DNA of 64,000 bases from Bacteroidales bacterium (GTDB lineage: Bacteria > Bacteroidota > Bacteroidia > Bacteroidales > UBA932), in assembly GCA_017617715.1 (NCBI GenBank), contig JAFZVQ010000011.1, positions 1 through 64,000 on the forward strand. Direction: 5' to 3'. This document shows, piece after piece, positions 33,375-52,681 of the stretch. The notes beneath the pieces are model-generated. The model was not told the origin of the DNA. It worked only from the letters and a program-made list of their open reading frames with translations, and did no database searches. The translations under genes and the position numbers were made by a program. The stretch's first letter is position 1. Each line of letters begins with the position of its first letter.

Positions 33375-34358
33375 ATGACTAAAGGAAATGTTCGCCCCGC
33401 TGACATGGAGCGTATCACTACGCCCGCTCTGGCGCAGAAATTCATTGAAGAGCAAATAAAGGAGCTGCGTGCTCAGATTGGAGACAAGAAGGTGCTGCTG
33501 GCACTGTCCGGCGGTGTGGATTCGTCGGTGGTTGCCGCCCTGCTGATAAAGGCAGTCGGCAATCAGTTGGTGTCGGTGCACGTGAACCACGGCTTGCTGC
33601 GCAAGGGTGAGCCCGAGCAGGTGATCCGGGTGTTCCGTGACGAACTGAAGGCCAACCTGATTTACGTGGATGCAGTGGACCGCTTCCTGGACAAGCTCGC
33701 CGGAGTGGCGGATCCCGAGCAGAAACGCAAGATCATCGGCGCCGAGTTCATCCGCGTGTTCGAGGAAGAGGCCCGCAAGCTGGAGGATATCAGCTTCCTG
33801 GCCCAGGGCACAATCTATCCCGACATTATCGAGTCCGGCCCCGTGAAGTCCCACCACAACGTCGGCGGCCTGCCCGAAGATCTCAAGTTTGAGCTGGTTG
33901 AACCGATCAAGCTGCTGTTCAAGGATGAGGTCCGCGTAGTGGGCGAGGAGCTCGGGCTGCCCGACAACATGGTGTACCGCCAGCCCTTCCCCGGCCCCGG
34001 CCTGGGCGTGCGCTGCACCGGCGCCATCACCCGCGACCGCCTGGAGGCACTGCGCGAAAGCGACGCCATCCTGCGCGAGGAGTTCGCAAAAAGCGGCCTG
34101 GCCGGCAAAGTCTGGCAGTACTTCACCATCGTGCCCGACTATAAGTCGACAGGCGTCAAGGACGGCAAACGCAGCTGGGACTGGCCCGTCATCATCCGCG
34201 CCGTCAACACCCGCGATGCCATGACCGCCACCATCGAGGAAATCCCCTACGAACTGCTGCACCACATCACCCGGCGCATAGTGACCGAAGTCCCCGGCGT
34301 CAACCGCGTCCTCTACGACCTCACCCCCAAGCCCACCGGCACCATCGAGTGGGAGTAA
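33375..34358 (+). CDS. guaA: GMP synthase, ATP pyrophosphatase part only (no glutamine amidotransferase domain)
   Basis: Aminates XMP to GMP. The protein has 327 residues against about 510-525 for usual bacterial GuaA. It starts directly in the ATP-PPase domain: the PP-loop is LALSGGVDSSVVAALL, and the dimerisation/XMP domain ends TPKPTGTIEWE with PFPGPGLGVRC and NTRDAMTA. The N-terminal class I amidotransferase domain is missing, and only 21 bp separate it from guaB, so it cannot be hidden upstream. The enzyme should use ammonia, unless a separate amidotransferase subunit exists elsewhere. The start is uncertain: ATG 33375 or ATG 33405 (MERITTPALAQK). Confidence 0.92.
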   Translation: MTKGNVRPADMERITTPALAQKFIEEQIKELRAQIGDKKVLLALSGGVDSSVVAALLIKAVGNQLVSVHVNHGLLRKGEPEQVIRVFRDELKANLIYVDAVDRFLDKLAGVADPEQKRKIIGAEFIRVFEEEARKLEDISFLAQGTIYPDIIESGPVKSHHNVGGLPEDLKFELVEPIKLLFKDEVRVVGEELGLPDNMVYRQPFPGPGLGVRCTGAITRDRLEALRESDAILREEFAKSGLAGKVWQYFTIVPDYKSTGVKDGKRSWDWPVIIRAVNTRDAMTATIEEIPYELLHHITRRIVTEVPGVNRVLYDLTPKPTGTIEWE

Positions 34359-34428
34359 TCGGAGTTGACCGATGCCATAGCGGAGCGAAGGCAACATTAC
34401 TTCAACGTGTGCATAAATTAAATTTTTC

Positions 34429-34452
34429 GGCATTATATATATAAATATTGCC
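34429..34452. promoter_or_regulatory. Imperfect 24-bp palindrome, possible operator of the toxin-antitoxin operon
   Basis: GGCATTATAT...AAATATTGCC matches its reverse complement at 20 of 24 positions. It sits 10 bp upstream of the -7 box, over the -33 region, where a self-regulating antitoxin would bind. This is inference from position and symmetry. Confidence 0.45.
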
Positions 34453-34462
34453 AAATTATGAT

Positions 34463-34470
34463 TATCTTTG
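34463..34470 (+). promoter_or_regulatory. -7 box of the toxin-antitoxin operon
   Basis: TATCTTTG, 15 nt before the ATG at 34486. Confidence 0.6.
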
Positions 34471-34485
34471 CGAAAAGATGTGATT

Positions 34486-50359: not shown

Positions 50360-50391
50360 CAAAGTTAAGACGAATCCGTGAACCTTGCAAA
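50360..50391 (-). promoter_or_regulatory. Promoter of the purine operon
   Basis: On the minus strand the -7 box TAACTTTG (50360-50367) lies 20 nt after a -33 TTTG (50388-50391), both matching the Bacteroidota consensus. It is about 40 nt upstream of purC2, so this transcript has a short leader. Confidence 0.65.
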
Positions 50392-50480
50392 CCCGATTCC
50401 AGGTTTTTTCAAAGAAGTTTTCAACAGATGATTGTTAATGAAAAATTCGGAAAAGCCTTGGCGGATTTCTATATTTACAC

Positions 50481-50488
50481 TACTTTTG
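50481..50488 (+). promoter_or_regulatory. -7 box of the pyrimidine operon promoter
   Basis: TACTTTTG lies 8 nt before the pyrC ATG, with a TTG -33-like element at about 50458. No attenuator or PyrR-type leader fits in this space. Confidence 0.6.
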
Positions 50489-50496
50489 TGTATGGA

Positions 50497-51621
50497 ATGG
50501 TAAGACTTCCCGCATTCGCAGACCTTCACGTGCATTTCCGTGAACCGGGACAGACATGGAAGGAGACCATACGCACCGGCAGCATGGCCGCCGCGCGCGG
50601 AGGTTATACCCTGGTCTGCACCATGCCCAACCTGGACCCGGTGCCTGATTCTGTCGAAACGCTGGCTCTCGAGCAGGCAGCGATAGACAGGGACGCCATC
50701 ATCAGTGTTCTCCCCTACTGCTCTATAACCAAAGGACGTAAAAGCCTGGAGATAGTGGACTTCGAGGCCCTCAAGGGCCGCTGCGTCGCTTTTTCCGACG
50801 ACGGAAGCGGAGTCCAGAGCCCGGAGATTATGCGGGAGGCCATGCGTGCCGCGGCCGCGGCAGACGTGATCCTGGCTGCCCATTGCGAAGACAACACCCT
50901 GCTTCACGGAGGATATATCCACGACGGACGCTACTGCAAGGCGCACGGCCATAAGGGCATTTGCTCCGAGAGCGAATGGGTCCAGATAGCCAGGGACCTG
51001 GAGATAGCGGCCGAAACAGGCTGCCGCTATCACGTCTGCCATATTTCCACCCGGCAGAGCGTGGACCTCATCCGCCAGGCCAAAAAGAGCGGAGTAAGAG
51101 TGAGCTGCGAGACCGCCCCGCACTACCTGACCCTCTGCGAGGACGACCTCCGCGAAGACGGACGTTTCAAGATGAATCCCCCTTTGAGGAGCGAAGAAGA
51201 CCGCGAGGCCCTCATCGAAGGCCTGAAGGACGGCACTATCGACGTGATAGCGACCGACCATGCCCCGCATTCGGCAGAAGAGAAATCGCGTGGCCTGGCA
51301 GGCAGCGCCTTCGGCATAGTGGGGCTGGAAACGGCATTCCCGGTGCTCTATACCCGCCTCGTCCTCCCCGGCCTGATAAGCCTTGAGAGGCTCGTGGAAG
51401 CCCTCTCCAGCGCCCCGCGCCGCATTTTCCGGCTCCCGGACGCCCCCGACGACTATATTGAAGCGGACCTGGACACCCCGTTCGTGATCCGCAGCAGCGA
51501 CTTCCTTTCCATGGGCAGATCCACGCCTTTCGAAGGGATGAGTGTACAAGGAAAGATTGTAAAGACTATATTTAACGGTTATTTAGTGTATGATTCGACC
51601 AAAGAAGAAACTGGTGCTTGA
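50497..51621 (+). CDS. pyrC: Dihydroorotase
   Basis: Converts carbamoyl-aspartate to dihydroorotate. It has 374 residues in the amidohydrolase fold. Metal ligands are visible in FADLHVHFREPG, ILAAHCEDNTLL, YHVCHIST and VIATDHAPH. The start ATG at 50497 (MVRLPAFADLHVHF) lies 8 nt after the -7 box; the longer upstream frame covers the promoter. It is the first gene of an eight-gene UMP operon. CarA starts 32 nt inside its end. Confidence 0.94.
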   Translation: MVRLPAFADLHVHFREPGQTWKETIRTGSMAAARGGYTLVCTMPNLDPVPDSVETLALEQAAIDRDAIISVLPYCSITKGRKSLEIVDFEALKGRCVAFSDDGSGVQSPEIMREAMRAAAAADVILAAHCEDNTLLHGGYIHDGRYCKAHGHKGICSESEWVQIARDLEIAAETGCRYHVCHISTRQSVDLIRQAKKSGVRVSCETAPHYLTLCEDDLREDGRFKMNPPLRSEEDREALIEGLKDGTIDVIATDHAPHSAEEKSRGLAGSAFGIVGLETAFPVLYTRLVLPGLISLERLVEALSSAPRRIFRLPDAPDDYIEADLDTPFVIRSSDFLSMGRSTPFEGMSVQGKIVKTIFNGYLVYDSTKEETGA

Positions 51622-52681
51622 AAACGGCGCCGAATTCCACGGAGTGGGCTTCGGAGCGGACTGCCGCAGCGTCTGCGAAATAGTTTTCAACACGTCCGTG
51701 GTGGGCTACCAGGAAATTGTGTCCGACCCGTCCTACGCCGGCCAGATAGTAGTCATGACCTACCCCCTGATCGGCAACTACGGCATCACCGACGAGGACT
51801 TCGAGTCCAAGTTCCCCAACATCGGAGGGATAGTGGTGCGCGAGTGCTGCGACACGCCCAGCAATTTCCGCATGACCAAGACCCTCGAGGAGGAGATGGA
51901 AGACCACGGCATTCCCTGCCTGAGCGGCATCGATACCCGCAAGCTGACCAAGATGATACGGCAGATCGGCCGTCCGATGGCAGCCATCGTGGAAGAGGAC
52001 ATGCCCCTCGAAGAAGCGCTTAAGCTCATAGCGGAAGCCCCCCGCCACGAAAGCTGGGTGCCCAAGGTGAGCTGCCGCAAGCGCTGGCTCACCCGCACTC
52101 CCAACCACCTCTACCAGGTGGTGGCCGTGGACTACGGCATCAAGCACTCGGTGCTGCGCCTGCTCACTGCAAAGGGCTGCAACGTGGTCATAGTGCCCTA
52201 CGACACTTCCGCCGAAGCCGTGCTCTCCTACAGCCCCGACGGCATACTGCTTTCCAACGGGCCCGACAGCGTGCTCGACGTGCCCGGCCTGGCCAGGCTC
52301 TACCGCGAGTTCAAGGGCAGCCGCCCCGTGCTCGGAATAGGCCTGGGGCAGGAAATCATAGGCGTGGAATACGGAGCAAAGGCCCAGCGCCTGGGCTGCG
52401 GCATCCACGGCGACCACCCGGTCCGCGACCTGCAGAGCGGCCGCATAGGCACGGCGGTGCTCAACCAGACCTGGTGCTTCCCCACCGTGGATGGCACATC
52501 CCTCACCGCCACCCACGTGACCGTGCCCGAAGGCTACGTGGTGGGCTTCGAAAACGCCGAAGACCGCGTGCTGGGCTGCCAGTTCCAGGTCGAAGCCGGC
52601 CCAGGGCCCCACGACTTCATGCCCGTTATCGACAAATTCATTAAAATGATGGAGGACCATAAGAATGCCCAGAAGAACTGA
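51590..52681 (+). CDS. carA: Carbamoyl-phosphate synthase small subunit with inactivated glutaminase site
   Basis: CarA normally hydrolyses glutamine and feeds ammonia to CarB. This 363-residue copy has a normal N-terminal domain (NTSVVGYQEIVSDPSYAGQI). In the class I amidotransferase domain the nucleophile elbow reads LGIGLGQEIIG, with Gly251 (codon GGC at 52340-52342) where Cys is expected. The catalytic His position reads CQFQVEAGPGPHD, with Gln333; Glu335 is kept. The NHG and GHRG-type motifs are also changed. It should not hydrolyse glutamine but may still be a structural partner of CarB. The 3' end overlaps carB by 17 nt. Confidence 0.93.
   Translation: MIRPKKKLVLENGAEFHGVGFGADCRSVCEIVFNTSVVGYQEIVSDPSYAGQIVVMTYPLIGNYGITDEDFESKFPNIGGIVVRECCDTPSNFRMTKTLEEEMEDHGIPCLSGIDTRKLTKMIRQIGRPMAAIVEEDMPLEEALKLIAEAPRHESWVPKVSCRKRWLTRTPNHLYQVVAVDYGIKHSVLRLLTAKGCNVVIVPYDTSAEAVLSYSPDGILLSNGPDSVLDVPGLARLYREFKGSRPVLGIGLGQEIIGVEYGAKAQRLGCGIHGDHPVRDLQSGRIGTAVLNQTWCFPTVDGTSLTATHVTVPEGYVVGFENAEDRVLGCQFQVEAGPGPHDFMPVIDKFIKMMEDHKNAQKN

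Follow-up and report, generated by a model that had tools for sequence, protein, structure and literature searches.

A probable set of ammonia-type PurF, CarA and GuaA enzymes in one genus of rumen Bacteroidales

Cells are usually held to feed the reactions of amidophosphoribosyltransferase (PurF), carbamoyl-phosphate synthetase (CarA and CarB) and GMP synthetase (GuaA) from glutamine because free ammonia is scarce. Mammalian CPS1 has a small-subunit-like glutamine amidotransferase (GATase) domain without the catalytic Cys, and AsnA and AsnB are mutually unrelated enzymes by which one cell makes a single product from ammonia or from glutamine. The crenarchaeal PurF-like protein PurF' has been proposed as a possible ammonia-dependent aminotransferase (PMC3261824), and free ammonia is described as the substrate used in vivo by single-domain NAD synthetases (PMC3376133); in Table 1 of the latter study, fused forms make up 100% of the GuaA of 730 genomes, and no CarAB without glutaminase is listed in 600. 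Here we analyse a stretch of 64,000 nucleotides from a Bacteroidales bacterium (the window; contig JAFZVQ010000011.1, positions 1 to 64,000) whose PurF, CarA and GuaA, judged from their sequences, have lost the glutamine-splitting sites, have kept the synthase parts and likely make their products from free ammonia, as an ammonia-type isozyme set of one rumen genus. The ammonia-type forms are marked with a star (PurF*, CarA*, GuaA*).

Glutaminase sites of PurF, CarA and GuaA

The window is part of contig G000:C52 (79,483 bases) of the draft genome G000, which comprises 2.32 Mb in 86 contigs and is 76.6% complete. Its named relatives are metagenome-assembled Bacteroidales that, by their record titles, come mostly from the rumen or other stomachs of goats, buffalo, deer, yak, sheep and cattle. 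PurF was compared across the best 80 of 439 genome-contig stretches encoding a PurF relative (PurF loci), CarA across the best 120 of 7998 scored homologues, the window's own CarA among them, and GuaA across the best 120 homologues. Two genome sets were used: a genus set of 101 genomes, 47 of them well assembled (at least 90% complete, at most 5% contaminated), and a set of 247 genomes of the order that included a single further member of the genus. Trees held 69 rows for PurF, 70 for CarA and 80 for GuaA (SH-aLRT, quick search), and the ratio of nonsynonymous to synonymous substitution rates (dN/dS) was taken over pairs with a total dS of 0.15-1.2 (PurF* and PurL), up to 3 (Cys-type PurF) or up to 2 (CarA).

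PurF* aligned with B. subtilis GPATase (PDB 1ao0, E 8e-156) from residue 2, so that its initiator Met occupies the Cys1 position. Its motifs read GSVKYAN for GHVRY.T and AGEGN for AHNGN; the N-terminal Cys nucleophile and the Arg and Asn of the glutamine site are absent, and the phosphoribosyltransferase (PRTase) domain with its phosphoribosyl pyrophosphate (PRPP) loop is present. These changes recurred in the 80 PurF loci, all of which had Met at Cys1, Asn at T76 and Glu or Asp at N101, with Lys at R73 in 79; the Asp127 position was altered in 11, and Arg26, Tyr74 and Gly102 were retained in 80/80. The loop, DDSIVRGTT, was present in each of the five commonest variants, which cover 78 of the 80 loci. 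In Cys-type PurFs, H71, R73, T76, H100, N101, G102 and D127 were unchanged in 20/20 (Cys read in 14 + 6). Mean pairwise identity of PurF* was 0.768 in the GATase domain (residues 2-225) versus 0.906 in the PRTase domain (residues 226-440; n=80), and that of Cys-type PurF was 0.706 versus 0.713 (n=13). Median dN/dS followed the same pattern, with 0.172 versus 0.068 in PurF* (1657 pairs) and 0.121 (44 pairs) versus 0.114 (31 pairs) in the Cys type. The dead GATase domain of PurF* is drifting while the synthase domain is held, and the relaxation test thus supports the loss for PurF. In the PurF tree one branch separated 52 Cys-less from 17 Cys-type rows, and the order set contained no PurF match above 63% identity except the window's own. 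The PurFs of L207, L210 and L251 (genomes G032, G021 and G063) retain the Cys and have YSN in place of YST and ANNGQ in place of AHNGN; this may be how the loss begins.

In CarA*, alignment with E. coli CarA (PDB 1t36) placed GIGLG at GICLG and Gln at the catalytic His, with the Glu retained, so that the Cys-His-Glu triad of a glutamine-hydrolysing carbamoyl-phosphate synthetase reads Gly, Gln, Glu. Gly stood at the Cys site in 120/120 of the best homologues, and also in 22/22 of the PurF loci whose fetched stretch reached CarA (22 of the 80). Residues 1-500 of CarB had a mean pairwise identity of 0.92 across 17 relatives. Of the 70 rows in the CarA tree 26 were without Cys, which took three changes, at least two of them forced by starred branches; L087, L088 and L217, inside the CarA* clade, still have Cys. 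A separate CarA lineage, L103 and L111 (G021 and G026), only 31-32% identical to the window's protein, has Gly for Cys too. Cys-type CarA was also seen within open frames of ~1460-1500 codons in G036, G027, G097, G105 and G095, which suggests CarA-CarB fusions.

GuaA* begins ~20 residues ahead of its ATP-pyrophosphatase domain. Residues 21-327 aligned with archaeal GMP synthase subunit B (PDB 6jp9, E 4e-103) and residues 12-327 with residues 205-525 of PDB 1gpm, and an N-terminal class I GATase domain is missing. PF00117 was not listed in 119/120 of the best homologues, whose commonest lengths were 327 aa (79 proteins) and 317 aa (17 proteins), and the SGGVDSS loop was conserved. Several deposited GuaA relatives carry the label 'glutamine-hydrolyzing', which is likely wrong for them. 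In the GuaA tree, GATase-less proteins fell in two places. One was a starred set of 31 that included the window's protein and six proteins with half-deleted GATase domains; the other was a starred set of 12 inside a starred set that also contained four full-length GuaA. The six, all without the Cys motif, come from G021, G024, G026, G032, G063 and G080 (L266, L261, L265, L253, L264 and L279, respectively). In the four whose N-termini were inspected (L253, L264, L265 and L266) the GATase domain still has its first part but neither the Cys motif nor the later part, and in G032 and G063 the domain model matched only at positions 1-76 of 190. Since sister proteins keep half of the domain, the short GuaA here arose by loss, and the tree indicates two such losses within the genus.

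Three enzymes that conserve their synthase part have thus lost the glutaminase site by descent; for GuaA and CarA this happened more than once, and the sequence comparisons place the losses of all three sites within one genus. Conservation in relatives means that the changes are inherited and are not errors. The initial annotation had described a GuaA without amidotransferase domain, a PurF without Cys1 and with further altered site residues, and a CarA with Gly for Cys and Gln for His; the alignments confirm each of these. Its judgement that the synthase parts look intact and that independent errors at these sites would be unlikely also holds for the three enzymes, given their recurrence in the best 80 PurF loci, the 120 CarA homologues and 119/120 GuaA homologues.

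Distribution in the genus and the likely nitrogen donor

PurF* was found in 24, Cys-less CarA* in 13 and short GuaA in 44 of the 101 genus genomes, all read from sequence. For co-occurrence, the PurF fragments of G001 and G010 did not count as PurF*, nor did the second-class GuaA matches of G020, G025, G117, G079, G001, G002, G007 and G034 count as short GuaA; the short GuaA of G093 was counted, and its sequence was later read as short. The Fisher p was 2e-5 for PurF* with CarA* (10 genomes), 6e-5 for PurF* with short GuaA (19 genomes) and 0.002 for CarA* with short GuaA (11 genomes); related species not being independent, these p-values are descriptive only.

Twelve of the 47 well-assembled genomes have PurF*. 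A long GuaA, recognised by its sequence or by a GATase match, was also present in 11 of these, G023 being the exception, and a Cys-type CarA in nine (by identity class), G023, G069 and G071 being without a CarA match. A further PurF-like gene was matched in eight, its Cys being seen in six; the remaining four (G023, G069, G071 and G119) gave no PurF-like match other than PurF* and GlmS. With both types kept in most good relatives, an isozyme pair of which some species lost the glutamine type is the most economical view. The initial annotation had treated intact copies elsewhere in the genome as telling against its reading; most good relatives do have them, and the window genome, at its 76.6% completeness, shows only ammonia-type forms. 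Amidotransferase scans covered PF00117 and PF13522 and found in the window genome CarA*, PurF*, a GlmS that keeps Cys1 and a hydrolase-like open reading frame (ORF).

The frequent coexistence with intact paralogues, as for crenarchaeal PurF' (PMC3261824), would fit starred proteins that have become regulators or act on other substrates, their textbook reactions gone. We regard such repurposing as quite improbable, given that PurF* and GuaA* conserve their PRPP and SGGVDSS loops, respectively, that PurF* is the sole PurF-like gene besides GlmS in 4/12 well-assembled PurF* genomes, and that GuaB and short GuaA are immediate neighbours both in the window and in G023. GuaB also stands directly beside short GuaA in L249 and beside a GuaA-GuaA* pair in L248.

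Ammonia might also reach the starred enzymes from a glutaminase acting in trans, either a separate subunit or a heteromer with an intact paralogue. Five genomes (G121, G008, G082, G089 and G093) encode a long GuaA next to GuaA*, and archaeal GMP synthetase works as two subunits (PMC9312489). A separate GATase subunit, GuaAa, was not found in the 76.6% of G000 available to the PF00117 scan, whose only matches were CarA* and the hydrolase-like ORF, which has a lipoprotein-like start. In the draft genome G081 (94% complete) the GuaA is short, and there was no match to either of the two families scanned, to PurF or to CarA; in the draft genome G023 (97% complete) only PurF* and only a short GuaA were found. 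Supply in trans is therefore unlikely, if less so than repurposing.

Free ammonia would be the simplest donor, by analogy with related enzymes. Drawn from the cell pool, it would enter the synthase site directly, and PurF*, CarA* and GuaA* would yield phosphoribosylamine, carbamoyl phosphate and GMP, respectively, with the retained GATase domains of PurF* and CarA* perhaps serving as scaffold. Rumen fluid is rich in ammonia, which may have relaxed the need for glutamine. That the ammonia-dependent reaction survives loss of the glutaminase site, as the initial annotation had stated, agrees with the literature for two of the enzymes: E. coli PurF with Cys1 replaced is reported to lose glutamine use and retain ammonia use (PMC3261824), and P. 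falciparum GMP synthetase with its catalytic Cys mutated is reported to have no activity with Gln and to work with NH4Cl, with a lower Km for NH4Cl (PMC9312489).

Besides the dependence among related species, several points weigh against an ammonia-type set. Ammonia use by the starred enzymes is argued from sequence comparison and analogy. Most good relatives hold glutamine-type copies, and the starred forms might work only beside those; in the window genome, intact copies may be missing from the incomplete assembly. Glutaminases persist in PurL, in GlmS and, with rare exceptions, in HisH. A single Cys loss suffices for the PurF tree, both this tree and that of CarA drew a program warning that long branches meet, and, the trees being unrooted, gain and loss are not distinguishable in them, so that the direction of loss is taken from the GATase remnants and the Cys-type kin. 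Among CarA* homologues the catalytic His was retained in 77/119 (Gln in 33) and the Glu in 119/119. Identity in the GATase versus the N-domain was 0.691 versus 0.816 for CarA* and 0.637 versus 0.695 for Cys-type CarA. The corresponding dN/dS values, from sets unmatched for distance as were those of the other enzymes, were 0.165/0.097 and 0.222/0.133, a ratio of about 1.7 in both. The GATase domain of CarA* is no more relaxed than that of the Cys type, and the relaxation test is neutral for CarA.

Loss of glutamine amidotransferases is not general in the genus, as GlmS is intact in the window genome and HisH was over the cut-off in 41 of the 43 genomes with HisF over the cut-off; a genome-wide loss was rejected on these grounds. 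The two other genomes are G095, whose HisH is only a fragment where a contig ends, and G068 (99% complete), in which HisF is present without a HisH match. The his cluster of the latter (L339, G068:C12:11500-17000) consists of hisA, hisF and hisIE, with no room for hisH ahead of hisA, its place in other genomes; this HisF is possibly a further ammonia-type enzyme. CTP synthase (PF06418) had no match in the window genome and in 8/47 well-assembled genus genomes. The suggestion that nucleotide synthesis here runs on free ammonia can be kept for three enzymes, for which ammonia is the simplest donor, and is too broad as a general claim.

PurL and the genes around PurF

Table 1. Features of the window discussed in the text
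Feature	Position	Strand	Description
GuaB	31839..33353	+	IMP dehydrogenase; directly upstream of GuaA*; named from sequence
GuaA*	33375..34358	+	GMP synthetase, ATP-pyrophosphatase and C-terminal domains only, without glutamine amidotransferase domain; 327 aa
Type III glutamine synthetase	35801..37987	-	named from sequence
PurD, PurH, PurN, PurM (one side of PurF*), PurC (other side)	38846..45374	-	named from sequence
PurF*	43292..44650	-	amidophosphoribosyltransferase; Met for Cys1, S for H71, K for R73, N for T76, E for N101; PRPP loop intact
PurL	45371..49114	-	FGAM synthase; interrupted by TGA at 45488-45490; outside the ammonia-type set
CarA*	51590..52681	+	carbamoyl-phosphate synthetase small subunit; Gly for catalytic Cys, Gln for catalytic His
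CarB	52665..55856	+	carbamoyl-phosphate synthetase large subunit; open

The initial annotation had counted four damaged enzymes, adding PurL for an in-frame stop before its His/Glu motif. The stop is there, both in the window and in G000:C52. In the 80 PurF loci, however, the PurL Cys was present in all 77 loci covering it. The count was 79/79 for the His, for the Glu and for a conserved residue where the stop lies. The stop looks private. The protein record P0242 is identical to the window PurL over all 1245 residues compared and has no interruption. It is listed on two contigs, the longest of 79,483 bases like G000:C52, which suggests the same assembly, so that record and contig disagree at this position. 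Taken as a control from the same loci, PurL had an identity of 0.774 in the synthase part versus 0.780 in the GATase part (n=69) and a dN/dS of 0.187 versus 0.193 (1135 pairs), with no gap between the parts. PurL was rejected as a fourth case on the intact Cys, His and Glu of relatives, the equal rates of both parts and the uninterrupted P0242, leaving three of the four enzymes. A recoded TGA was also considered; PurL itself ends at TGA, where P0242 also stops. With PurL intact in relatives and in the matching record, it presumably still uses glutamine, and the purine path would still need it.

The absence of the PurL stop from relatives and from the matching record is what decay or assembly error would predict, and for PurL alone this explanation fits. 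Its extension to all four genes as broken copies is highly improbable, being refuted for GuaA, PurF and CarA by their relatives, with conservation in 80/80 PurF loci and 120/120 CarA homologues. For PurF* and CarA* alike, the median dN/dS of either domain was much lower than 1, as were all other medians, so that the genes do not behave as pseudogenes.

PurC and PurL were matched in 80/80 related PurF loci. The initial annotation had also linked the purine operon to the type III glutamine synthetase. This enzyme was matched in 0/80 of the loci, 54 of which extend at least 7.5 kb downstream of PurF, and a conserved linkage to PurF* was rejected. Two PurC-like genes, at 44652-45374 and 49640-50320, flank PurL and PurE on either side, the second having a close match (at least 80%) in 19/80 related loci. 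Between guaA and the glutamine synthetase, at 34468-35758 on the forward strand, lies a nucleotidyltransferase-like gene whose start looks DNA-binding and, after it, a HEPN-like gene (both named by eye), a pair reminiscent of MNT-HEPN pairs.

Comparison with known systems

Three enzymes that normally take nitrogen from glutamine have lost the glutaminase in one genus. On balance we also favour, with less confidence than the isozyme set itself, a wider reading in which the enzymes at the entry to purine, pyrimidine and GMP synthesis have become ammonia-only throughout the rumen genus, two of them more than once. Sister proteins would be half-way through deletion of the glutaminase, some members show neither of the two main GATase families, and ammonia would be the main nitrogen currency there. 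Such proteins, if they are natural ammonia-only enzymes, would be test cases for how channels and GATase domains persist or disappear. The set bears on ammonia use by rumen bacteria, and glutamine analogues would be expected to have no effect at these steps.

No prior report of this set in Bacteroidales was found in the literature, for which coverage of subscription journals was poor. A dead CarA-like domain was already known from CPS1. A Cys-less PurF was known from Crenarchaeota (PMC3261824).

PurF* resembles crenarchaeal PurF', described as a PurF fold without the N-terminal Cys encoded near purine genes (PMC3261824), in being Cys-less and encoded beside PurC; a second PurF-like gene was matched in 8/12 well-assembled genomes, with its Cys seen in six of the eight. 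The likeness drawn here is one of features. PurF* differs in being bacterial, in belonging to a genus that also has a Cys-less CarA and a GATase-less GuaA, and in being the sole PurF-like gene besides GlmS in 4/12 well-assembled genomes. CarA* resembles mammalian CPS1, for which ammonia is the donor (PDB 5dot, molecule name '[ammonia]') and whose ammonia use CarA* would share. Unlike CPS1, the system here is bacterial, has Gly for Cys, and has CarA and CarB as separate, overlapping genes in place of a fused chain. GuaA*, a stand-alone ATP-pyrophosphatase with C-terminal domain, is like archaeal GMP synthetase subunit B (PDB 6jp9 and 3a4i). In contrast to the archaeal two-subunit enzyme, no subunit A was found in the window genome, and sister proteins retain half a GATase domain. 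As synthetases without glutaminase, the starred enzymes are also comparable with single-domain NadE, described as working on free ammonia in vivo (PMC3376133), although the enzymes concerned are others. Finally, unlike AsnA and AsnB, the ammonia-type and glutamine-type forms in this genus are homologous.

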